Below are positions 16,405 through 63,613 of a stretch of 64,000 nt of DNA, piece after piece. Within the stretch, counting starts at the first letter, position 1. Each line of letters begins with the position of its first letter. The DNA comes from Romanomermis culicivorax (Eukaryota > Nematoda > Enoplea > Mermithida > Mermithidae), in assembly GCA_963922205.1 (NCBI GenBank), contig CAWUHX010000029.1, positions 744,001-808,000 on the forward strand, written 5' to 3'. A model generated the notes under the pieces. That model saw nothing but the letters and a program-made list of their open reading frames with translations. It was not told the origin of the DNA and did not search any database. A program made the position numbers and the translations under genes.

Positions 16405-17060
16405 ATGAGTATAACAGTCATTGTTTTCTATCAGGCGCGGCCATTAGCATACCTACTTCCATTTACTAATTAACCTTCAACAGTTTCAATCAACTGCATT
16501 AACTCATCTCTTTTTTTAAAAGTTACAAGACAAAATTTTCGGCATGGTTCCCACTATGGTAAACAATTTTTTGATTTCAAAACCGAAACGATGCCCTTTG
16601 GTGAACTTCAGAAGGTCAAAACCTGAAAATTTTCCGCCGCTTCGCGCCGTTCATGAGTATAATAGTCATTGTTCTCTATCAGGCGCGGCCATTGGCGTAT
16701 CTACTCCCACTTACTAATTAACCATCAGTAGTTTCAATCAACTGAATAGTCTCATCTGCTTTTTTATTAGTCATACGTCAAAATGTTGGGCATGGTTCTC
16801 ATCGTGGAAAAATATTTTTTCATTTCAGAACCGCAACGATGCATTTTGGTAAACTTCAGAAGGTCAAAACCTCAAAATTTTCGGGCGCTTCGCGCCGCTC
16901 ATGAGCATAACTGTCACTGTTTTGTATCAGACGCGGCCATTAGCACATCTACTTTCACTTACTAATTAACCCTCGTCAGTTTCTATCAATTGAATTACTT
17001 CATCTTTTCTTTTATTAGTTAAGAGCCAACATTTGGCTGATAATTGAGGTTTTTCACTTT
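16405..17060. repeat. 248-bp tandem array, about 2.6 units
   Basis: Units start at ATGAGTATAAC (16405), ATGAGTATAAT (16653) and ATGAGCATAAC (16901), a period of 248 at both steps. Each unit carries TATCAGGCGCGGCCATTAGC-like sequence, then ACTTACTAATTAACC, and ends with a form of GGGCGCTTCGCGCC. A single related unit lies at about 45590-45830 and a further relic at about 46480-46570. Confidence 0.8.
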
Positions 17061-31368: not shown

Positions 31369-31732
31369 CAGGTTTTTCCGGAGTAAAAATCATCTATATT
31401 TATCATACAAAATGATAAAAGTGTGTGTACCAGTGGAAGACCTGCTGCCGGTTTCCGGAAAGCAACTTAAGTCGGAGTCGGACTTAAGTTCTAACTTAAA
31501 CCGTTAAGTCGGTTTCCGGTACGGAAGACTTTGCTCAACTTTAAGACATGTCTTAAACATATGACTTAAGTTAAGACTTAAAAAAATGGGTTTCCGGTAC
31601 GTTAAGACTAGTCTTGACTTATTTAAGTTATGTCTTAACTCCCGTGAAATTTAAGACTGGTGGGTAGGTGTCTTAAAGTTACGACGAGGTGTATTATGTC
31701 GGTTTGTTCACACTTCACTCGTACATCATTTC

Positions 31733-32508
31733 TTGCGTTTTCGAAAAATGGTCGGTCGACTTTTATTGCTGCTGAACGAGGAACGTCGAAACAACATTCG
31801 CATCAATAGAATATTTCGTGACCGATCTAATCCTCTAGATATATATAATGACGTGGATTTGTATCAAAGATATCGTTTCGATCGTCCAAGTATTTTGCAT
31901 ATCACGGACTTATTAGCTAATCAACTAAATACTACGAAGAGGAATTACGCCATGCTGCCAGTGCAACAAGTTCTTATGACCTTGCGATATTATGCTACTG
32001 GTACGTTTCAAATTTTTTGTGGGGACGATATTTGTATAACCAAAAGTGCTGCATGCAAAACAGTTTGGAAAGTAACTAGCGCTATATTGAATCGTATGAG
32101 TTCCGGCATACAGTTTCCGGTCGAAGGGCGTTGCGATCAAATAAAATCGGACTTTTACAAAATTGCAAATTTCCCGGGCGTTTTAGGATTAGTTGATGGT
32201 ACTCATATTCGCATTCAACGACCGTCTGAAAATGAAAACGACTATATTAATCGTAAATATTTTCCTTCTATCAACGTCCAAAGTATTTGTGATAGTAAAG
32301 GACGATTTTTGAACGTTTGCGCGAAGTGGCCAGGGTCAACGCATGATGCTTTTGTGTGGTCTCAAAGCCGGATAAACGCGCAATTTGAAGCCGGTCGTGA
32401 AGACGGATTCATACTCGGCGATAGCGGGTACCCTTGCAAACCATGGTTACTCACGCCTTTCCGGAACCCGGAAAATCGTAATCAATTGAATTTTAACGCA
32501 GCCCATAG
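31733..32508 (+). CDS. Harbinger transposase, exon 1 (HARBI1-like DDE)
   Basis: The first of two exons of a 351-residue DDE nuclease, the HARBI1/PIF transposase size. The exon holds an N-terminal helical region and most of the catalytic fold. The first acidic residue lies in G-L-V-D-G-T-H-I, the second in L-G-D-S-G-Y-P, and W-P-G-S-T-H-D sits between them as in the family. Donor AG|GTAGGC at 32509 splits the codon of the A-H-R motif. The enzyme would cut and paste the element at 3-bp targets, normally in complex with the SANT protein coded on the other strand. ATG at 31748 is an alternative start. Confidence 0.9.
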
Positions 32509-32975
32509 GTAGGCATATTTCACTGCTTTCTTGATTCAGAAAATTCCCTTTGTTATCTCATAGATCAAAATTTGAAGAAATAAAACAGAAATAACATGAT
32601 AATATGTTAATCAAGCATAAATATATCTCCTTAATTTTCAAAGAATTTCAGCACAACAATAATGTCAAATTGTAGAACATATTTCTGTTCTTTTTCACCT
32701 TTACAAATAACATATTCGGATGTGGAAGCGTCATAATATTTATACAGCTAAAATTATGTAATTTTATGCTTCAATATTGAATAATTTTTTCCTGAAGTCA
32801 CCATGAAAAACTGGAGACCATAAATGGGCGTGGTGGGGGTTTGGAGGGGGGGCTTGAAACCCTGATATATTCTTTCCGCAGTATTAATTTTTCTATAGTT
32901 AAAATTTTGCTGCACGTTTAGACACACAAAAAAATTTTTTGAGTGAATAAAAAAAATTATTGTGCTTCCTTTAAG
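32509..32975 (+). other. Intron of the Harbinger transposase gene
   Basis: A 467-bp GT-AG intron, ending CTTCCTTTAAG. It contains in-frame stops and a G-rich stretch near 32825-32850. Length is not divisible by three. No other feature. Confidence 0.75.
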
Positions 32976-34848: not shown

Positions 34849-35322
34849 GTTAGCATTCGTAGTGAAGGAGTGGACGTTATTTAAGTGAAATGAAACATAT
34901 TGTGCATGATGCAACAATGCTGCGGACTACTTTTACGCGCTGTGTAAACTGAGTAGGCGTTTTTGATTCGCCGTAACCCCATAATACGATTTAAGATATA
35001 ACTTAAGTTATAACTTAACTTATTGATTTTTCGTATTGTGAAGATAATGGGAGTAAAACGTTATTCAAGATGTAACTTAAGTCAGTCTTAAGTTATAACT
35101 TCGCTGAGTTATGTCTTAAATCGTACCGGAAACTGACTCAAGTTATAACTTGGTAAGTTATAACTTAAGTCTAGAACTGACTTAAGTTATAACTTACGTA
35201 CCGGAAACCGGCCCCTGAGCTATGTATAGATGTTTCTAGTCAGCTAGATAGGCCCGCCAACCAACTGCAGGATGTCCAGCGGTTTTCAAAATGAAATTCC
35301 TTGAATTTACCAGGTTTTCCAG

Positions 35323-36067
35323 TGTCAGGGTTACTGTAAGGGTTGATGTGTACTTAAGCAAGTTGGGTTTTCGACTTTACTAATCTACAACTTACAACCT
35401 TCGTACAAACGTTGGTTCAACACGAAATGTAAAACTGGTGCAAAAACGCAAACGTAAAACGGGTGCGAAATTACACAACGTAAAACTCGGCGCGAGAATG
35501 CACAAACGAAATAACGGTCCAGTCGCGGGACGATTCTCATAAGGCAAAATTACTGACAGAATCCGGCGCGGGATTCAACTGCTGAGGTCGACGTAAAAAC
35601 CAAAGACTCGCGTAAGGGAAAATAACTGATGGAATCCGGTGCGGGATTCAACTATTTGGGTTGATGCGAAAAACCAAGACTGGCCATCTTTTTCAAAAAC
35701 AGGGTCTTCTTCCTCATCTCAGACCCACTTGACCCATATTTCAGACATGAAAAACACCCACAGTGGTCGGCGCGGACCATACTTGAGTTACTGTAGGTTC
35801 TGAAATCTACAGGGCGCCACAATTAGCCCTGTTATGCAAGTGTCCATAATTAGTGTTTTGAGATGTGGCCACTGTTTCCGTTGAAGTGTGCATAATTACA
35901 ATGAAAAGTGCTCGAGTGCACAAAACTCGTAATTCTAACGAATGAAAAATAGCTGTACAAAAACAGGTTTTAACCGGAATTTTTTGGAGGAAAACATGGT
36001 AAAATTTTCAGAAAATATACAGTACATAATTTTTCATAACTTTACATTTTTGTCACTCCTCGTGACA
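35323..36067 (-). repeat. Gypsy-1 3' LTR (coding sense)
   Basis: 745 bp, TG...CA, paired with 43676-44408. By eye about 3.5 % of positions differ, mostly transitions. This copy has about 14 extra bases near 35780 (GGCGCGGACCATAC). The left neighbour is CCAG. Confidence 0.9.
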
Positions 36068-36130: not shown

Positions 36131-39100
36131 TCAGTTGTATAGATGGCACCATTTGTTGCCAGCCGATTTTGAACTGTTGATTGATGGACGAGTTGAGATA
36201 ATTGTACAATTTGGTGTTGAGGGTCGATTTTCCTGATATGTGACCCTTGAGTGAAAGGGTACTGTTTCGTTGATGTGGATCGTGAATTGCTTACCCTTTT
36301 CATTTTCGAGAAGGATATTTGGATATGAAATACCAACGATTTTAAATGGTCCATGTTGTTTGGTTATGAATTTTGGACATTCTAACCGTTTCATTGTATG
36401 TGTTTTCCGAAGAGCGTAGCCTCCAACTCCATATTGGGTGTCATTGGCGTTTTTATTGTATTGAGCAGTGTAATTCGATTGGGCTTCGTTGGTTGCTCTG
36501 TTCACTTTGTCAAATGCGGATGAAAGATAAGTTTTTACCCTTGTTAAGTAATCGTCTGGGTCAACCTGATAAGGAGACCTCGGGAAAAGGGTTTCTGAGG
36601 GCAATCGGGGCTTCCTGCCATAAATTAATTCGAAGGGGGAGAAACCCGTCGTTTTATTCACATGAGTGTTTATGGCGAAGACTGAAAAAGGGATGTAATC
36701 ATCCCAATCGTCGTGATGATCATCGACGAACATTCGCAGACGTGTGACGAGGGTTCGGTTCCCTCTTTCGACCTCACCATTGGGGCAAGGGTGTTAGGGG
36801 GTCGTATGTACCTTTCTGGTACTGCATAATCTTGTGATTTCTGTGAAAAGTTCTGATGTGAAATCAGAGGCCCGATCACAATGAATGATTTTGGGCGCAC
36901 CATGCTTACAAACGATTTGATTGACCAAAACAGAGGCTATAGTCTTTGCGGTTATATTTGGTACGGGGAAAGCCTCCATGTATTTTGTGAAATAGTGGAC
37001 GAAGACGACAATGTGCAAGTTTCCATTGATTGAAGGGGTGATAGGGCCAATGCAATCTAGCCCAACCCCCTCAAATGGTTCACTACTGAAGATAGGAACC
37101 ATCTTTGCCTTGATGCGATGTCTGACAGGTTTGTTCATTTGGCATTTTGAACATGTTTCACAGTATGATTTGACATCATTGTGCATTCGGAGCCAATAAT
37201 ACCAGTCTGCAATCAAACGTAAGGTTTTTTCAAAGGCGAAATGGCCCGCGAATTTTGAGTCGTGATGGGTCCTCATGACCTCATGACGTAGGGCTTTGGG
37301 AATGTAAAGTCGCTTTTTCCCGTTTGAGAGACGGTAGAGAAGCCCGTTTTCCTCACAATAGTGTTTTATGAGTTCGGAATTTCCATTCCTAAGATCCGTA
37401 AGGAGTTTGCAGGTGTCCGTATCTATCAGTTGAAATTCTGCAAAGTTTTTGGCCAATTCTTCCGCATCAGTGGCCTCATTTTCTAGACCTTGGATTGGGG
37501 CTTGGATAATGTTTATTGAGCCCTTACTTTCCGTTTTTTCAAGGTCTACTTGAACTACATTAGTCTCTGGATGAGTCTCTAAGGTATCGATATCAAAAGT
37601 GGGTTCAGATTTTGGATCAGGGAAACGCGAAACTGCATCAGCGTTTTGGTTGGCCACACCACGGCGGGGCCTGATATCCAACTGAAAGCCAGATAAGGCT
37701 AAACCCCAACGTGCAATACGAGGGGAGGGGTTCTCTTTGCTGAGAACCGCTTTGACGGCAGTGTGGTCAGTATGGACTATCACTTCTTGTTGAAACAAAT
37801 AAGCCCTGAAGTACTTGACAAATTCGACAACTGCTAGGGCTTCTAGTTCAGTGATCGGATAATTTTTCTCAGCAGGTTTTAGCCCACGGCTTGCAAAAGC
37901 AATGGGATGCTCAAGCATATCATCCCCAATTTGACTCAAAACAGCACCTATACCAAGCAGAGAGGGGTCTGTTTGTAAAACGAAGGCTTTTGAAAAGTCT
38001 GGATGAGCCAAAAGAGGGGCCCAAATGAGGCAAGTTTTGAGTGTCTCGAAGGCTGCTTGTTGCTCTGTGCCCCAGGCGAAAGGGGTATCCTTTTTCAATA
38101 ACTTTGTCAAAGGGCCGGCAAGCATAGAGCAGTCCTTTATGAAACCTCGATAATATGATGGAAGACTCAAAAATGACTTGACTTCCCTAACATTAGTCGG
38201 GGCAGGAAGTTGGGAAATAGCTTCAACTTTGCCAGGGTCTGGAGCTATTCCTTTCTCAGAGATTATGTGGCCCAGGTAGTGAACTTTAGTCTGCGAAAAC
38301 TTACATTTTTCGAGCTTCAATTTTAAGCCAGCGTTATCCATGCCGCTCAAAACAACGTCTAGACGAGCCAACATTTCTGCATGGGTCCGTGCGAATACCA
38401 AAACATCATCCAAATAAACAAGGCAATTCGACCACTGTAACCCCGAAAGTAAAACATCCATCAAGCGTTGAAAGGTTGCAGGGGCATTGCAAAGCCCAAA
38501 AGGCAGGTAGTTGAAGTGGTACTGCCCAGACGAGCAGTTGAACGCCGTTTTTTCCCGATCCTGGTCAGCAATTGGTATGCTGTAATAAGCGTTCGTTTGA
38601 TCTAATGTCGTAAAATATCGCATACCCCTCAAAGCATCAAAAATATCATCAATGCGCAGAAGGGGGTATGTATCCTTTTTGGTCACATTGTTCAGGCCTC
38701 GAAAATCAATGCAGAGGCGAAAACGGCCGTCCTTCTTTTTAACCAGGACTGTATTTGTGCACCAAGGGGAACTGCTCTTTGAGATTATCCCACTATTTTC
38801 CAGCTTTCTGATTTCTTCTTCAATCAAAGCCTTCTCTTTAGGGGCTGTTCGAAAAAGGGGTCTTTTCACTGGTGTGCTACCCTGTGTCTTAATTGAATGT
38901 TCCACCAGTGTTGTAGGACCAACATCCGCTTTTGTTTTGGCGTATAAGTTTGGATATTTAGCCAGCAGATCCAAAAGAAGTTGCTTTTCCGTTTCCGTAA
39001 GGTCAGAACCGGACAAATCTACAGTTTGGTTCAACCATTCTTTTATGGGTTTCTCCTTGACTGACCCATCTAGATTACCATTGTATGCTTCTTTTCTGGT

Positions 39101-39754
39101 TGCCACGTAACAGACCACAGAACCAATGCACATGTTCGGATACAGTGTGACTTCTGAGTTCAAGGGGTTCATTACTGAAATCCCCAGGTTGTGGTCAATG
39201 ACTGGACTCACAGTGGCAGCAAAACATACATGTAGTTTTTCTGCCACATTCAGTTCTGGGGAGAACTGGTCCATAGTCTCATTTCTGTAAAGATTTGAAA
39301 CAGGGACTGAAAATTCAGTCACACTTCTTGGGGTAAGAATGAGCCGTTCATTCATGTAAATGCCGCCTTGGTGGCGTAACGAATGATATTTAACTCTTGT
39401 GCAGGGTACAATTTCATTTTCCAATTTCACATATGATTTCTTGTTGTTTATAGCCCACTGTTTGAAGCGAAACAAGAAATTTGACCCCAGTAAAAGGTCC
39501 GCAGCACAGTTTTCTTGAACGAGTGCTGTGACTGTTTCGTTGATAGCACCAATTTCAATCGTGAGATAAACTGCACCCAAAACATGAATGCTCATGTTGT
39601 TGGCAGCTATAGGGGTCATATTCGTGGGTTCAATTTTAATATCACCCAATTGATCAATGATTCATTTGTCGACTAAGGTAAATGTAGCCCCGCAGTCTAC
39701 CATAGCATTGGCGGTAACGTTTTTGTTTACTCTAACCATAATATGGGGCGTTCT
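36131..39754 (-). pseudogene. Gypsy-1 Pol: protease, RT, RNase H, integrase
   Basis: Retropepsin: active-site loop D-C-G-A at 39697-39686 (D-T/S-G usual), then TGA at 39664-39662. A 951-codon open stretch follows from 39649: protease end with L-L-L-G-S-N-F; RT (about 265-435) with intact Y-L-D-D at 412-415; RNase H (about 555-665; T-D-P-S, E, T-D-H); integrase H-H-C-C finger (about 788-838) and core with D864 and a second D near 925. TAA at 36796-36794 falls just before the N-G-E-V-E-R glutamate; the same frame then continues to 36131, 64 bases from the LTR. The enzymes would copy and insert the element. Confidence 0.92.
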
Positions 39755-40875
39755 TCAATTTTCGCCACTCACATGGGTAGCATTATTCACCCATTCCATC
39801 AAAGGGGCACTAGAGGCCTGTGGATTTGGCACCATAATGTATTTATTTTGGGCTTCCAAATTCCTCAGATTGGCCAACTCCAAGAGGGCCTGCCCAAGGG
39901 TAGGAGTAACGGGAGGAGGAATTCGATTCCTCGGCTGCTCATACCTCGGCAATTGCCTGAGTCTTTTAGCACATCGAGAGACCCAGTAGCTAACATAGAT
40001 AACTCCAACCACAAAAGCTATTAGGACAGCCAAGTTTACCAACATCTGCAAGGGTCCTTTCAGCAAATTATTAAGTCCTTGGGCATGCTTTGATGTGACC
40101 CAACCATCACGTGTTCAAGGGCTTGACCAGCCCCTGAAATGCTATTACCGATGGCTTGTCCGGACCCAGCCAGAAATTCGCACACTGTCCCTGAGTGAAG
40201 GGACATTTCTGAGGTATAATTGACTAGTCTTTTGACCACAAGTTCCAAATCATGGGTCCGAAACATATAGCTCTTCAGAAACAATAGGCTAGTTGAAACT
40301 GCTGTCAACTGACCATGAAATATTGGCAGAGATTTGAAGTTGAAGATTGAGAAGTTTCCCTGCCAAACGACTTCTAAGGGTACCTTACTGACATGAATAG
40401 GACCCATTTCTGTTTGCCAAGTTTGGTTGATTTTGTAAGGGTGAATTGGCTGATGGTTGCAATCCACCCTTTGGCTAAAGGGTAGGAGATCCACACCTCC
40501 TGGGGAAACAAACATCAAGTCGTTTCCCAGTAAGACCGGCATGTATTCATAGCAGGTGCCATTGATTTTATGATTCTTGTAAATTCGAGAGGCATTCACT
40601 TGCCTGCAGGACCAAATTGTTATGGCCTCACCCGTGAACTGGGCAATAATGTCGGTTTGTTGGAGGAAGGCCTTTGCTCCTAGAGTAGGGTCTAGATGTA
40701 AAAATTGCCATATAAGATCCAAATGGCATTGGGCCTGTCTACATAGTTCACTCCACACGTTTTGAAAACTTTGCATTTCAAAATCAATCATTTTCAACGC
40801 CAAATAGTTTAGTTTGGCATTGATGGGGTCAGAATCTGTTAGATCAAATACAGGTGGAGAATTCTGACCCTCCAT
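39755..40875 (-). pseudogene. Gypsy-1 envelope-like glycoprotein, C-terminal part with membrane anchor
   Basis: Continues the ectodomain in a different frame (40875-40060), with at least four more N-X-S/T sites, C-pairs and W-rich stretches. A second frame change near 40075 leads into a segment of about 20 hydrophobic residues (about 40045-39980), then a basic R-C-A-K-R-L-R stop-transfer and a proline-rich tail, the layout of a type I membrane anchor with cytoplasmic tail. The tail is in the same frame as pol; only TGA at 39757-39755 separates them. Confidence 0.75.
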
Positions 40876-41669
40876 TTATACAAGGTTTGATTGATCTCGA
40901 TCACAACACTTTGTTCGGTGAGTAGCCCATTTGTGATATTAGGGCAACTTTTGTGAGAAAAATTTGATCTTTTAACAAAAAACGCAGCTTGCAAGTCATT
41001 AACGATGATATGATGACCCGTTTGTTTCACAATATAACTGTCTTTGTACTCAAAAGGGCATATAGATTCGAGGGTTGTTTCATTCCAAACAACCACTCCG
41101 TCTGATGCAACACAGTGGCCTGAACTGGGTTTGCAGCCCCCAAGATCACCAAGGGTGCTTAGCAGATTCGAATTATCCCAGGAGGCCACTTGCCCTTCCT
41201 CAATGATTAAATTCTCAACAGAACTGCAATGATCATTGCAACATCACCTATGTTCGACACTGAGCATATTTGCAGTTGACCAAAAGTTTGGAAGGGTCTC
41301 GTTCAAAGTTTGGCCCTTGTAAAGTTTTGAATACCAAAAAGTTTTGCATTCAAAAGGGGTGAGTGTTGCAAGTTTCGTATCATCACCCACAATACCTTTG
41401 GAACCGAAAAATCCCGTATTTGTACAAATTGTTCGAGTTCTGATGCTACACTTGAATGCTGGAGATAGCTTAGGGTGCCCACGAGGTACGAAAAGCTTAC
41501 CCATAGTTGTCAGAGGTTTCTCACCCACCATGGGTCTAACAAACAAAACAGTTTTAGGAATTTCGATTGAGTGACCACTTTGAGAGGTTCCACAAATTTG
41601 AAGTGAAGAGACTTTATTTATGCCCATAAAAATGGTGAAAAAAATATACACGCATTTTAAAGAAAACAT
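40839..41669 (-). pseudogene. Gypsy-1 envelope-like glycoprotein, N-terminal (surface) part
   Basis: ATG at 41669 starts a classic signal peptide: short polar start, about 12 hydrophobic residues, then small polar residues before a cysteine-rich ectodomain. There are at least five N-X-S/T sites and many cysteines, including a C-V-A-S-D-G-V-V-V-W segment that recalls class III-type glycoproteins of chuvirus-like negative-strand viruses; that relation is a guess. TGA at 41246-41244 interrupts it in frame, and the frame is lost at about 40850-40870. It would act as a surface glycoprotein if expressed. It stands between gag and pol. Confidence 0.75.
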
Positions 41670-42238
41670 ATGGGCGGTGGTGGCCTTTTCAATAGGGGCG
41701 TCAGCCCCAGTTCCGACGGTTTCCACACGTTCTTTTCCCCTGGCCACGATTTTTGTTGTGTCTGTTTGTACAAGAAAAGAAGAACCGTGGCCCATTTTGT
41801 CGATGGCCCTGTTGAGGGCTTCTTGGGCCGGTCGATTGGTTTCCTTGGCCCACGAGGTTTCGAGTGCGATTTCGACGTTTTCTCCTCCGGGCTGTCCGAG
41901 CCCGCCTGCACCTTGGGCCTGCACCCCTTACCGTTGATTGCCATTACACCCTGTAATGAAGAAAAAGCCCTTTTATGGGGCAGATAACTTTCTTGAGCTT
42001 CAAGCCTCTCACCAAGTCTGTCGAAGACAGGGGGCCTGTCGGATCCAGGGCCAACATCGGTTTTGCCCTTTTTCGGAATTTTATAGTCTTTGGGCAAGGT
42101 CAGTTTTTCAGCAGCCACCTGTTCGATCTCACCCTCGCTTAACAAGCCTTTGGACATAGGCTCATTCGGTTCGGGCATTGGCGGAATGGATGCTGGCCAT
42201 GCCCAATTTTCTGTCTCGTCGTTACTCCAGTCGGGGTC
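41657..42238 (-). pseudogene. Gypsy-1 Gag-frame C-terminal region
   Basis: About 193 codons continuing the Gag frame after the TAA. Proline/lysine/serine-rich, with two short P-P runs and no enzyme motif. It ends at TAA 41659-41657, ten bases after the ATG that opens the envelope-like frame (41669), so the frames overlap slightly. An 85-codon extension of the envelope frame also overlaps it. Function unknown; perhaps a late-domain or linker region. Confidence 0.6.
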
Positions 42239-42784
42239 TTATGCTAGTGACATGACCGGGCGTGTGACAGAACAATGATTTAAAGTGGTCATACCAGGGT
42301 CGTCACTATCCAGGAGATTGATAGAAAACCCATTATTGTGATTCTGACCATACTTTTGGGGGCAATATTTTTCCAAATGCCCTTTGTGTTTACATTTCCT
42401 AAATTCTATGGTAGGGCACTTATTGTGCTTATGTCCCACTTTTTTACAAAAGCGACATTTTGATTTACACTCAGAGGCCACATGGCCTTCTCGACTACAA
42501 ATAGAACATGAAGAAACCGTAGGGGAGTCAGAGGCTTTCTTGCAAGTATTAGCATAATGCCCCTTTTTCCCACATTCATAACATGTGACACTGTGATCTG
42601 AACGCCTCTGTTTTTCATTTTTACCATGATTTCGAAGTTCATCCAAAATTTTGTCAAACTTTTGGCTCAGCTGATCGACCTGATTTTTCAAAGGGTCGTC
42701 ATGTTGGACCGCTAAAACTGGTTCCCTGACAAACGAGGGATATGACATAGGACAGGGGACTTTGGCTTCGTCCCGCAACATTTG
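42239..42784 (-). pseudogene. Gypsy-1 Gag, nucleocapsid with zinc knuckles
   Basis: In frame with the capsid part. Three canonical C-X2-C-X4-H-X4-C knuckles (C-Y-E-C, C-S-I-C, C-R-F-C) stand close together; a fourth (C-K-H-K-G-H) lacks one cysteine. They would bind the genomic RNA. Ends at TAA (42241-42239), again with the frame open beyond. Confidence 0.85.
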
Positions 42785-43522
42785 TCATTCTATGAATACG
42801 GCTTCAGAAACGAGGGCAGCTAAATCAGGGTACTGTTTGTACTTGATGACACTTTGAATATCACTCAACAGACCCTCACCGAAAACGGGTTCAATTAAAT
42901 TCTTCCGTAAAGCTAGTTCAAAATTAGGATAGGCAAGCCAGCCCAATTTTTCGAGTTCCTTAAAGAAAGCCATTACTGTTTCAGTTCGTTTTTGTTTTCG
43001 ATCCCCCAAGATTTGATGATGAAACAGGGTGTCTTGAACAACAGGGAAGGCGTCCAGCAGAGCCCGTTTAAATTGATCGTAGGTCTGAGGAGGATTAGGG
43101 GAGTTGGAAATATTTTCGAATTTCACCAAGGCGTCCCCATCCAAATGGAATTCCAAAGATATAAACTTGAGGGCATCATCATCAGCTGTAATCCCCTTTA
43201 AAAGCATTTGTTTTTCAAGCTTCTTGGCCCATCCTTCAAAATTTTCAGAAGGCCTACCAGTGAAATGTGGAAAATCGCGATTTTTCGTGGACATTTCGCT
43301 CCTAAGATGTCCAATTCTTAACTCATTCAGACCCACTTCAGTAGTGGACACTTTTTGTGCAATTTGAGCTTCGAGCTCCCGCAGACGCCCATCCAAAACA
43401 GTGGCGAGAGCGTCCTGAACTACATGTCCCAATGGGTCTATAATTTGGTTGTGATGAGGCATTTTTTCGTTGAGGGTTTGTTCCCTAGTTTCACGCTCGA
43501 TGCCTTTAAAGACGTCACACAA
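42785..43522 (-). pseudogene. Gypsy-1 Gag, matrix/capsid part
   Basis: 245 residues from the ATG at 43522. The first 60 or so are helical and charged, then a Retrotrans_gag-like capsid with F-T-G-R-P-S-E-N-F-E-G-W followed by helices, ending in L-I-E-P-V-F-G-E and Y-P-D-L-A-A-L-V. It would assemble the particle. It ends at TGA (42787-42785); the same frame continues on the other side into the zinc knuckles, so the stop splits one Gag. Whether this is decay or a read-through stop is open. Confidence 0.85.
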
Positions 43523-43675
43523 CGTTTCTTTAGTTACAGTATACCGACCTGACTGTTTTGATGAAATTTTTGGAAGAGAAAAAAAAAGATTTGACCAAGA
43601 ATTATATAAATTTTTGTTTGGATAAGGCTAAAGAAAAAGTTTCTGGGTTCCCCTATTATTAGGTCACCACGTTTA

Positions 43676-44408
43676 TGTCAGGGTTACTGTAAGGGTTGAT
43701 GTGTACTTAAGCAATTTGGGTTTTCGACATTACTAATCTACGACTTACAACCTTCGTACAAACGTTGGTTCAACACGAAATGTAAAACTGGTGCAAAAAC
43801 GCAAACGTAAAACGGGTGTGAAATTACAAAACGTAAAACTCGGCGCAAGAATGCACAAACGAAATAACGGTCCAGTCGCGGGACGATTCTCGTAAGGCAA
43901 AATTACTGACAGAATCCGGCGCGGGATTCAACTGCTGAGGTCGACATAAAAACCAAAGACTCGCGTAAGGGAAAATAACCAATGGAATCTGGTGGAGGAT
44001 TCAACTATTCGGGTTGATGCGAAAAAAACCAAGACTGGCCATCTTTTTCAAAAACAAGGTCTTCTTCCTCGTCTCAGACCCACTTGACCCACATTTCAGA
44101 CATGAAAAACACCCACAGTGGTCTTGAGTTACTGTAGGTTCTGAAATCTACAGGGCGCCACAATGAGCCCTGTTATGCAAGTGTCCGTAATTAGTGTTTT
44201 GAGATGTCGCCACCATTTCCGTTGAAGTGTGCATAATTACAATGTAAAGTGCTCGAGTGCATAAAACTCGTAATTCTAACGAACGAAAAATAGCTGTACA
44301 AAAACAGGTTTTAACCGGAATTTTTTGGAGGAAAACATGGTAAAATTTTCAGAAAATATACAGTACATAATTTTTCATAACTTTACATTTTTGTCACTCC
44401 TCGTGACA
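43676..44408 (-). repeat. Gypsy-1 5' LTR (coding sense)
   Basis: 733 bp, the promoter-side LTR. It is followed (minus strand) by TAAACG and then the candidate tRNA primer site TGGTGACC. Transcription start and polyadenylation signals were not clearly recognised. Confidence 0.9.
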
Positions 44409-44412
44409 CCAG

Positions 44413-59006: not shown

Positions 59007-60180
59007 ATGATGAAGAAATTATTGAAACCAAAATTAACGGTGCAGAAACAACCTGGAAGACGACCAAAAGTAACATTATCGCAAACCGAATTGACTAAAG
59101 AAGATCACGTTGAACGAATGGCAAATATGGAGGCAACAATCGAACAAGTAGCAAAGAAATTTGCAAATGTACCCGATGATCGCGACAAAGATCAAACTAT
59201 TGATGCGGAAACATATGATTACGCGGATCAGGGGATACAGATGTCCTCTGATTCAGTATCATCCTTCGAGAAAATTAGCTTACCTCCAGAAACGAATGTG
59301 GTATCATTTTACAATTCAAGATATACGCCTACAATACCGAAAAGTGACACTAAAATCGATATCGAAACAAAACTGAAGAACGAAACTGAAAGGACAACGA
59401 ACGGAAATATCCAGGATGAGGCCACTTTAGCCATCCTGGAATCAATGCAAAAAGCTGTTGACAAATTGACGAATGCCGTTAATGTAGAAAGAACGAAAGC
59501 GGCACTTCGGGAACAAGAAATACTCAAGCAACTCATGCGAGAAAGAGCAGAACGTAAGTTATGGGAAGAAAAGTTTCGGGAACAAGAACAGCAAAACTCA
59601 AGAAAGATCATGGAAGAAGTTGAGAAACAAATGCGGGAATTGATGAAGAAAATGGATAAGAGACCCGACGAAAGAATATTGAATCCCGGAGATATGGAAA
59701 TACTTCCGTCTGAACCGGTCAAGGACCATTTATACAGGAGTTTGGAAAGAAAAGTCAATTGGTTTGAAAACCATTTCGCCCAGGCCCAGGCTCAAGGTGC
59801 CCAACATCGAATGATTGAAGATGAAGTATCAATGATGTCATGGAATACCCGAACAGAACAACCCATATCTGGAGGCAACCCTCGAAATCGGCAAAAGTAT
59901 GGACGATATTGTGAAGATCCCGAAAAAAGAATGAAGATAATTTTGAGTCGAATGAAGAATAAAGAAATATCAGATAAAATGGAAGCCGTGGAAATACTTA
60001 ATTTTTTCGCCTGTTTGGAAGGCACATTTAAGCCTGAAGACACAGAAGACTTAAGAATTGAAGTACTCTGGCATTGCTGCGATTTTGAAACCTCAACGTA
60101 TGTGGACAAGAACGGCAGTTACGAAGAAGGAAAAGCAAGCGTCATTAGAATGATCCCCCCCCCCCCAAATGGACACTCCT
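59007..60180 (+). pseudogene. Gypsy-2 Gag, N-terminal part
   Basis: A 398-codon frame opening with a basic K-K-L-L-K-P-K start, then a long coiled coil (about residues 140-215, E/K/R/Q heptads), then the first half of a capsid with L-N-F-F-A-C-L-E. It leaves the true frame at a run of 12 C (60155-60166): the rest of the capsid continues in the next frame. The length of the C run could vary by slippage or sequencing error. Confidence 0.85.
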
Positions 60181-61398
60181 GCACTCAGAAGGGAGCTACA
60201 TGATATGAAAAAACGAAAAGGGGAGACTACAAAAGATTTTTTGCGACGAATAAAGACTTATGTCCATTTATTAAATTACGAAAAAACCGAAAATGAACGA
60301 AATCGAATTGTTATCGAAACATATTTTCACAAAGCCCCAGTGTATGTCCAAACTCGAATGGAAGGTCGGCTTCACGAATTCAAAAATATCGCCTCTTTGG
60401 CAGAATTCGTAAACAAATTGAAAGCCGATACCATGGCCTGGAAAGAATTTAGCGAAGAGCAAGAAGACGGCGAAAACGATCAGTTGAATCGAGTCTATGA
60501 AAATAGAAGATTTAATAATTTGCAAATTCATCAGCAAGATAGCAGTATCGGTCAACAACAACAAAATTCAAGGCCTCAGCAAATTTTTCCACCACCACCA
60601 GCATTTCAAAACCCTGTATCTCAACAAGATATTATGAAAATGGTCAATGATGCAATTAGGAATCAGGGCCCTCCAGCTCTTAATCATTGGGGAGTCAATA
60701 GTAATCCTAATAATATTCAATACAATAACTTACTTGATCGTGTTTTGGGAAATCCATATCCTCGACCATATTGTTCATACCATAAATCGAATAGCCACTC
60801 GTCCGAAAATTGTTTTATTCTCCACCCTGAGCTAATTCAACAAACGGATCAGGGGAGGTCGTGGAATCGTGGTAATAATTTTTATAATCAAAATTTTGAC
60901 CAGCGTGGCGGCTTTGTAAATTGTGGACGAGCCGGTTTTGTTAATTTCGGTCAACGGGCACCATATCATAATAAAAATGCGGAACAGAATTCAAATGTGG
61001 CCTATTATTATCGTCAAGGTAATGTCCCGCAGCCACCGCCAAATATTGTACCATCAACATCATCGCAACCGATCAATAACCCCCCGAATAATTCCATAAA
61101 TGTTATAAATTCACAGGAGGCTAAAAAACAAGATAAGCCAGAAATTATAGCCTTAGATGGAGTTCTTATAGAAAATTATGAGTTAAGCTTAGCGAATGTT
61201 ATCAATTCTACTTCAGAAGCGAAACCTAGACTCGCCAATGATAACGAACATCTATTTTTGGAAAATTTTCGCAAATGTCAACCATTATTAATACCCATTA
61301 ACATGCGCGGAGAAGAATTTAAAGCCCTAATCGATACTGGGAGCACAATCTTGCTTTATGAGGACAGATACAGCGTCGAGACTACTGAATACACCTAA
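60169..61398 (+). pseudogene. Gypsy-2 Gag, C-terminal part, with protease start
   Basis: Continues the capsid (L-R-R-E-L-H-D-M, then F-L-R-R-I-K-T-Y), a Q/N/P-rich linker, and one zinc-knuckle-like C-X2-H-X4-H-X4-C (C-S-Y-H ... N-C) instead of the usual C-X2-C type. At 61333 comes the protease active site, L-I-D-T-G-S-T. The frame is lost shortly after, at about 61350, where the next frame takes over. Confidence 0.85.
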
Positions 61399-62536
61399 GA
61401 CAAAATTTCCTATCTTAAATTCAGTAGTAACAGCTGTAGGAAAACGCGTAACAACATATGGTCCTACATTTATCTACGTTGGAACCAGTTTTGGAAATTT
61501 TCTGGCTAGATTCGCATTGCTAGATAACCTGAACGAAGGTATTATATTGGGTCTAGATTTTCTAACCCATCCTAGTATACAGGCATCTATTGATTTTCGA
61601 AAAGGCCACATGCGCCTAGCGAATATAGAAAGACAGATAATTAGTGAAACATTATTCGACGATGCGCAAATACCATCGCGGTTGCCAATTCCTACAAATC
61701 GGATGGTTTTAGATTATGTACCTATAAAGGAGGAAGTTAAGGAAGAGGATCTGCCTGAATTAGAAAGCGACGATGATCAAGAACAAGTAATACGAATTAC
61801 CGAAATGAATGAAGAAACTTTTATTTGGACAAAAAATGGGACATATATTCCCCCGAATACCACTTCTTTTGTGCAAGCTATGGTTTGGCCACAGAAAGAT
61901 TGGACAAAGGGTCCCATAGTGGTAGAAGAAATGGGGAAGAATACTTTATTCGACGTCGACACCTCAATCCTGGATGCCAAAGACAACAATTTTGGAATTC
62001 TACTCATAAATGAAATGAACAAAGGGATAAAATTGCGTAGCAATGAGTTGATAGCAAAATCCAAAACGAAATTCCTAGGGCCGGAATTCGATGAGAAAAT
62101 ACATCAACTTCAGACAGAACCTCAAATTCAACAGCAGAGCGAACCAGAATTCATCAAAATCGTGACGCAACTAGTGAAAGAATCGAGTATCGATCGAGAA
62201 GGGCAACAGCAACTTATGAATGTCCTACTCAAACATAGGCATGCATTCAGTATGAAAAACGATCCTTTGATGATGACCCACGAGGCACAACATAAAATCG
62301 ATACAGGAGACGCATTACCAGTTCAAAAACACTACTGGAGAGCTCCCATCATGCAAAGAGATATTATTCCTGAACATGTAAAGGATATGATGGAAAAAGG
62401 TGTCATTGAGCCCTCTAGAAGCCCTTGGGCTGCACCATTGTTTTTAGTGGGCAAGAAAGATGGCACGTGGAGACCAGTAGTTGATTACAGGGGAATTAAC
62501 CAAGTAACGAAAGACGATAAATTTCTGATACCATGA
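61358..62536 (+). pseudogene. Gypsy-2 protease end and RT start
   Basis: 392 codons: protease second half with [11 protein letters not shown], an acidic linker, then the RT fingers with [15 protein letters not shown] and D-Y-R-G-I-N-Q. Ends at TGA 62534-62536, inside the well-conserved P-x-I-D-D region, so the stop is a break in RT, not a natural end. Confidence 0.88.
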
Positions 62537-63613
62537 ATTGACGACTATTTAGACGCGTTAGGAGGTGCACGATATTTTTCGACTTTGGATTTAAAGTCCG
62601 GGTACAGGGAGGTGCCAATGCACTCCGAATCGAAGGAAAAGACAGCATTTATATGCCAAGACGGTCTTTTCCAATTCAAAGTAATGCCATTCGGGCTTAA
62701 AAATGCTCCCGCAGAATTTCAGCATCTCATGGAGCGAATTCTATACCCTTATGTATGGAAAATATGTTTGGTATACATCGACCATGTGATAATTTTTTCA
62801 AGAACCATGGAGGAGCATCTGGAAAACCTAGAAACCATATTTCGATGTCTGACAAATGCAAACCTTACATTGAAACATGACAAATGTTCCTTTATGCCAG
62901 CCAGTGTAAAATTTTTAGGCCACATATTGGACAAAAACGGAATGTCAGTTGATCCACAGAAAATAGAAGCAGTTAGAAGTTTCAAAGTACCTAAATCCAT
63001 CAAGCAGCTACAGAAGTTCTTGGGATTAGTACAATGGTCCAAACGTTTCATACATAACTTAGCTTTCATCGCCCAGCCTTTATTTAAAGCCCTCGTAAAG
63101 AAGAATAGGAAGGAGAACTTTGAACTTTCAGAAGAACAGTTAACAGCTTTTGAAGGTGTAAAAAACGCCCTAATGACAGCACCCTTCCTTCGGTATCCAG
63201 TGTTTGATGGATCAGCGAAATTTATGATTCAGACTGATGCCTCAGGAACAGCGATAGGTGCGATTTTGTATCAGGAAACACAAAATGATCGCTGGACAAT
63301 AGCCTATTCGAGTAGAGTTTTAAATGACGCCAAAACAAGATATTCCACAACGGAAAGAGAGTGTCTAGCCGTAGTCTATGGGTTCAAGCAATACCGACAT
63401 TACGTTATGGGGTTTAGGGTCACAATCAGAACAGATCATAAACCACTTACGTGGCTTTCGGCGGAAAAACAACAGAATCAAAGGTTGCTGAAATGGGCCT
63501 TATATCTCGGACAATTTAACTATACATTTGAATATGTCATGGGACGTGATAATGCATTCGCAGATTTCTTATCACGCTCCGAGGAGAAAGAAAAGATCCG
63601 AAGCAAAAAGTGA
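62537..63613 (+). pseudogene. Gypsy-2 RT palm and RNase H
   Basis: The same frame goes on: F-S-T-L-D-L-K-S-G-Y with the first catalytic aspartate, P-F-G-L-K-N-A-P, then Y-I-D-H at 62774-62785 where Y-x-D-D is required. RNase H follows (T-D-A-S, E-R-E, R-T-D-H-K-P-L) and ends near D-F-L-S-R. TGA at 63611-63613. The histidine at the second metal-binding aspartate predicts a dead polymerase. Confidence 0.9.

Follow-up and report, generated by a model that had tools for sequence, protein, structure and literature searches.

A 64,000-nucleotide stretch of the genome of the mermithid nematode Romanomermis culicivorax (assembly GCA_963922205.1, contig CAWUHX010000029.1, positions 744,001 to 808,000; hereafter the window) carries on its minus strand a decayed Ty3/Gypsy-type element whose envelope glycoprotein gene (env) stands between gag and pol. 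The element reads long terminal repeat (LTR), gag, nucleocapsid (NC), env, protease (PR), reverse transcriptase (RT), RNase H (RH), integrase (IN) and LTR. Other copies in the same genome keep this order and, where intact, fuse all of these genes in one open frame. The Gag-Env-Pol arrangement is thus real, shared across a family, recently mobile and maintained by selection, and it adds to the known range of env-bearing LTR elements. To our knowledge, retroviruses and env-bearing retrotransposons place env after pol and usually express it apart. The reading we favour, and consider probable, is that of a recently mobile Ty3/Gypsy-type R. culicivorax family with a chuvirus-like fusion glycoprotein in its single gag-pol frame, whose Gag-Env-Pol polyprotein would be threaded through the endoplasmic reticulum (ER) and whose Pol would be tethered by the Env transmembrane segment. 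The translation, topology and infectivity of such a product we infer from the copies described below.

Copies of the element across the genome

Used as a query against the genome, the LTR found 64 matches from 40 scored candidates. Six two-LTR loci were retrieved, and each of them holds gag, NC, a linker, env and pol in that order between a flanking 4-bp duplication. Four of the six have a single frame of 2527-2544 codons that covers gag, env and pol as far as the end of IN and closes shortly after the 3' LTR begins; the remaining pair is broken, and one member of it has a large internal deletion. The LTR pairs of the six copies differ at 0/809, 0/809, 10/790, 1/809, 44/800 and 6/828 positions, and two of the four one-frame copies have identical LTRs. 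These counts indicate that members of the family moved recently.

A search with an env piece returned at least 142 scored matches from 3198 first-look candidates. Of the 142 env matches listed, 44 have an open frame of 2450-2700 codons, and 73 have one of at least 1500. The corresponding search with RT returned at least 146 scored matches from 7617 candidates. When the listed matches were paired by hand, 32 of the 44 long-frame env loci proved to be followed, at a distance of about 2.1 kb, by a listed RT match of the same strand and frame length. The remaining 12 have no RT match among those listed; two of them, L069 and L070, were fetched, and in both a single frame joins gag to env and pol. 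Starting from RT, 26 matches reach at least 88% identity; for 24 of these the env list has a match some 2.1 kb upstream, and two retain the env tail alone before PR, these copies being truncated inside env. An initial annotation of the window, made from its letters, had held that siblings lacking env would speak for a chance insertion; none occurs among these 26 closest RT matches, more distant ones having been left out.

The near copies, which are the 29 matches ranking next after the window itself (five of them also belong to the six two-LTR copies), all keep the order (29/29), and in 17 of them the pieces of NC, env and pol lie in a common frame. Four more diverged loci, whose identity to a near copy is 54-58% in env, 37-61% in gag and 41-55% at the start of pol, extend the arrangement to other subfamilies. 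In each of these four, all 4,500 bases fetched (1500 codons) are open in one frame, which takes in gag, NC, env and the first part of pol. The linker between NC and env finds no match in any of them. The placement of a glycoprotein between gag and pol, which the initial annotation had proposed from a single copy, is therefore a stable trait of the family (6/6 two-LTR copies, 29/29 near copies and four diverged loci), and the siblings it had suggested seeking through the LTR do carry env.

Relatives were also found in other sources. P0125, a protein from an NCBI contig of 13,136 bases, joins Env, a transmembrane stretch, PR and RT in one frame of 1130 residues, with env 40% identical; the viral fusion family PF24664 is matched at residues 265-382, followed by the transmembrane stretch near 508, PR at 738-818 and RT at 1056-1121. 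P0003, from a jgi contig and with pol 45% identical, has a strongly hydrophobic stretch that precedes PR in the same frame and from its place may be the end of an env. As a control, 120 pol matches were read, of which 49 show a PR motif preceded by at least 40 residues; a hydrophobic stretch precedes PR in two of the 49, namely P0003 (strong) and P0018 (weak). P0127 (536 residues) is an env with a signal-like start, and P0128, an old R. culicivorax gene model, shows by eye part of gag, part of env and PR in order, of which Pfam found PR only. Two protein searches with env returned R. culicivorax in 2/2 and 2/4 of their matches, respectively. Scans of IMG/VR with P0003, P0125, P0127, the window piece and alignment A4 confirmed no relative, nor did searches of GTDB contigs with P0125 and A4.

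The age of the design is more finely balanced. We put at about even the chance that this is an old Gypsy-type lineage, predating the divergence of pol starts that are now 41-55% identical and present in at least one other source, in which a membrane-threaded Gag-Env-Pol would let the Env transmembrane segment, rather than a Gag-Pol fusion, carry the polymerase, so that envelope, capsid and enzymes would come from one message in one pass.

Two RT matches at C122:532055 and C122:540464 lie 8.4 kb apart, one of them in an open frame of 3612 codons; they are perhaps tandem copies sharing an LTR.

The glycoprotein and its conservation

By profile, env is a chuvirus-like fusion glycoprotein. The window piece at 40060-40875 matches PF24664 (Monjiviricetes_fusion) with 59 bits against a cut-off of 27, and all eight translations of env or env pieces from sibling loci do so above the cut-off (E 1.5e-15 to 3.9e-20). 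The remaining three env pieces of the window match no Pfam family above its cut-off, and matches of env to BDV_G and to herpesvirus Glycoprotein_B are weaker and below theirs. The profile search had been put forward as a check by the initial annotation, with a non-viral membrane protein as the outcome that would count against it; the protein was found instead to belong with a viral fusion family. Chuvirus glycoproteins are termed type III fusion proteins in the available text of a recent study (PMC13172572, 2026), and because this typing accompanies the PF24664 match, the Env of the family is likely a class III fusogen.

The features that first drew attention to the protein, a signal peptide, N-glycosylation sites, many cysteines and a membrane anchor, are largely borne out. 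Env pieces from five sibling copies have 8-11 N-X-S/T sites and 18-21 cysteines, and the env segment is the only strong transmembrane segment in the copies measured. A hydrophobic, signal-like stretch at the start of env exceeds the 19-residue threshold in four of five copies, including all four diverged loci. What did not hold is the single frame for env in the window, where the gene lies in pieces.

Env is under purifying selection, as its substitutions show. The ratio of nonsynonymous to synonymous substitution (dN/dS) is 0.091, 0.083 and 0.117 in the three pairs with usable dS (0.057-0.075). Between L031 and L069, the nonsynonymous distance is smaller in env (0.37) than in the start of pol (0.55) or gag (0.58).

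Expression of a Gag-Env-Pol product

In the mechanism we propose, synthesis would begin with Gag, in the cytosol. The hydrophobic segment inside the chain would then act as an ER signal, bringing the ribosome to the membrane, and signal peptidase would cut behind it. The Env ectodomain would pass into the lumen and be glycosylated, until the Env transmembrane segment served as a stop-transfer and returned the chain to the cytosol. There, PR, RT, RH and IN would be synthesized in continuation of the Env tail. Both Gag and Env-Pol would come together at one membrane, the tether to Env would draw Pol into particles, and PR would finally free the enzymes. The design predicts that delivery of Pol to particles runs through Env. 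Alphavirus and flavivirus polyproteins are made in a similar way, unlike the spliced env of retroviruses. Among the motifs searched for, no 2A motif, by which the chain could be split, occurs in 15 pieces from five copies, and R-X-K/R-R is absent from five env pieces and occurs twice in one gag piece.

Two routes to the glycoprotein had been offered at the outset, a single Gag-Env-Pol product and re-initiation at the ATG at 41669, and the former fares better, given the long common frames and the rarity of that ATG. Among the near copies, the codon at this place is ATG in 4/29, ACA in 18, ACG in two and another codon in five, the place being extrapolated in copies with a broken frame. The nearest in-frame Met before the ectodomain lies 7 to 63 codons upstream, at a place that varies among five copies. 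The ATG count makes re-initiation at 41669 unlikely.

Several observations weigh against the proposed polyprotein or weaken its footing. Equal production of Gag, Env and Pol (1:1:1) would be unusual and would call for post-translational correction. The window copy itself is disrupted in gag, env, PR and IN, and in 12 of the 29 near copies the pieces do not share a frame, which decay would lead one to expect. In the near copy L031, the signal segment has a shorter core and falls below the hydropathy threshold. On selection, one near pair, with just 10 differences, gives an env dN/dS of 0.28, and dS is saturated in five env pairs between subfamilies, whose nonsynonymous distances are 0.31-0.37. 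Two structure models built on shallow alignments (six and five sequences) reached a predicted local distance difference test (pLDDT) score of only 37.8 and 36.2 and were not used, and a PDB sequence search (E up to 10) with the window piece and one sibling env matched no solved structure. Sequence searches brought up no chuvirus protein directly; the class III assignment comes from the profile match.

The most serious alternative, which we nevertheless regard as unlikely, is that Env comes from a message of its own, cis- or trans-spliced, or that an in-frame splice removes env to yield Gag-Pol, the long frame being read as such from genomic RNA only. Retroviral env is normally spliced. Closer to hand, the nematode Gypsy-type element Cer1 has a frame without a gag-pol stop and yet, in the available text, expresses CERV from a five-exon message (PMC10309623). 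Against this alternative, no conserved start codon precedes the ectodomain in the five copies, and the ATG at 41669 is scarce among the near copies, as given above. A simple pattern for a pyrimidine-rich acceptor finds none within 330 bases upstream of the ectodomain in any of five copies, with donors and looser acceptors outside the search. Finally, a spliced env would not require continuity of frame, yet this continuity is kept across diverged subfamilies.

It is distinctly improbable that the glycoprotein has lost its role in entry and serves as an intracellular membrane anchor for Gag and Pol. An internal membrane segment could by itself sort Gag and Pol to membranes, but the ectodomain, with its cysteines, is under purifying selection and well conserved between subfamilies, which is more than a mere anchor needs. 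That a fragment of a viral glycoprotein was inserted by chance into a single Gypsy copy, or that the assembly is chimeric, might be suggested by the disruptions of the window copy in env, gag, PR and IN, but it is refuted by the other copies, with at least 142 env matches, the order kept in 29/29 near copies, four diverged fusions and a fused protein from another source. Equally remote is a cellular membrane protein, for which the tail piece offers weak matches to DUF4234 and Wzy_C_2, both below cut-off; against it stand the PF24664 matches above cut-off, with BDV_G and Glycoprotein_B as weaker matches below theirs.

Known elements and the window copy

The polyprotein reading can be set against several known elements, as they are described in the available portions of the papers cited; Atlas virus and Anakin come closest as precedents. 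Atlas virus, an endogenous belpaovirus of hookworm, resembles the family in being a nematode LTR element with identical LTRs and with Env in a single Gag/Pol frame (2828 residues). It differs, however, in its Gag-Pol-Env order, its BEL/Pao pol and its C-terminal Env, a phlebovirus-like protein of class II (PMC9094657). The R. culicivorax family shares the single frame but has the order Gag-Env-Pol. Anakin from mosquitoes is likewise an LTR element with a chuvirus-derived glycoprotein, but its pol is of the BEL-Pao type and its hosts are insects (PMC7642597), whereas the Pfam domains and named matches of the family are of Gypsy type. A 2023 survey of Jingchuvirales glycoproteins reports two nematode insertions and insect Gypsy fragments near glycoproteins, though no clear Gypsy capture (PMC10084718). 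Dingle, from the annelid Dimorphilus, is Gypsy-type and has an Env resembling herpesvirus gB, but downstream of integrase (PMC7854359). Cer1 of Caenorhabditis elegans is also Gypsy-type with one polyprotein frame (2272 residues) free of a gag-pol stop; unlike the family, it has an extra spliced ORF after pol that encodes the nuclear protein CERV and no glycoprotein (PMC10309623). Mosquito Gypsy elements are said to carry type III fusion glycoproteins (PMC13172572). As far as the available text of these sources goes, env before pol is not seen in Atlas virus, Anakin, the Jingchuvirales survey or Dingle, the place of the Anakin glycoprotein not being stated there. The suggestion that no family with a Gag-Env-Pol order had been described agrees with the literature searched, which yielded none; the survey of metazoan env-bearing Gypsy elements by Chary and Hayashi (2025) lies outside it.

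Errantiviruses are likewise Gypsy-type elements with a viral-type Env, and their env follows pol. In the present family env precedes PR instead, and there is no room for a second env because the long frame reaches the 3' LTR. An env fixed in mid-frame in a recently mobile family represents another workable genome plan, one that would offer Pol a simple route to the budding particle. It also makes the question of how LTR elements gain env testable in a nematode whose mosquito hosts have retroelements that also carry chuvirus-type glycoproteins.

The window copy is laid out in Table 1. Two LTRs enclosing gag, zinc knuckles, a glycoprotein and then protease, RT and integrase on one strand were part of the initial annotation and are confirmed.

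Table 1. Parts of the Ty3/Gypsy-type element in the window (positions within the window).
Feature	Position	Strand	Remarks
5' LTR, TG...CA	43676..44408	-	adjoining 4-bp duplication CTGG at 44409-44412
gag: capsid-like region and NC with CCHC zinc knuckles	42239..43627	-	zf-CCHC 1.9e-8
variable linker, NC to env signal	41670..42238	-	without match in 4/4 diverged loci
hydrophobic signal-like segment at env start, internal to the family's long frame	41604..41669	-	
env, N-terminal piece	41247..41669	-	
env, middle piece, past in-frame stop	40839..41243	-	
env piece with Monjiviricetes_fusion match	40060..40875	-	PF24664, 3e-16
env, C-terminal piece: transmembrane segment (~39989-40045) and cytoplasmic tail	39755..40114	-	
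aspartic protease, DCGA at 39686-39697	39430..39741	-	motif read in sequence
reverse transcriptase	38261..38743	-	RVT_1, 9.6e-35
RNase H	37685..38074	-	RT_RNaseH_2, RT_RNaseH
integrase: H2C2 37303-37127, rve core 37030-36830	36131..37303	-	Pfam Integrase_H2C2, rve
3' LTR	35323..36067	-	adjoining 4-bp duplication CTGG at 35319-35322

The assignment to Ty3/Gypsy draws on several features. LTRs of the TG...CA type and 4-bp duplications are found in the window and in all six fetched copies. The PR-RT-RNaseH-IN block, from about 39741 to 36131, has the Ty3/Gypsy order of Pfam domains (RVT_1, RT_RNaseH_2, RT_RNaseH, Integrase_H2C2, rve), and its named best matches are Gypsy/412 and K02A2.6-like, the Gypsy assignment coming from these domains and names. 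Retrotrans_gag is under its cut-off in the window gag (0.0066) and over it in the diverged copy L069 (7.1e-6). The usual protease motif is DTGA or DSGA; DCGA, as in the window, occurs in three of five copies (L031, L067 and L068), and DTGA in L069 and L070. Each of five copies measured has an NC with four CCHC knuckles (window 42239-42784 and sibling loci), more than the one to three known from most Gypsy elements.

The LTRs of the window copy differ at 25 of 731 aligned bases, and the copy is fairly old for that reason. Its gag has stops at 42785-42787 and 42239-42241, its PR at 39755-39757 and 39662-39664, and its IN at 36794-36796. Its env falls into four pieces through one in-frame stop (41244-41246) and two frame changes (40875/40839 and 40114/40060), and the first piece is in a different frame from gag. 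The shared frame of gag, env tail and pol that had been read from the coordinates holds for the family, as the one open frame in other copies attests.

Rfam and tRNA scans of the whole window gave no matches. A second, different Gypsy-type element at 59007-63613 (plus strand) runs off the window and shows gag-like frames, a LIDTGS protease-like motif read by eye, RT and RNase H, the Pfam run covering its last frame only. No membrane-protein frame was seen between its gag and PR, and it forms an ordinary contrast from the same genome. At 16405-17019, a 248-base unit is repeated in tandem (2.5 copies). Finally, the frame at 31655-32512 (plus strand) matches the transposase family DDE_Tnp_4 (3.4e-24) and probably belongs to what we take to be a Harbinger-type transposon.
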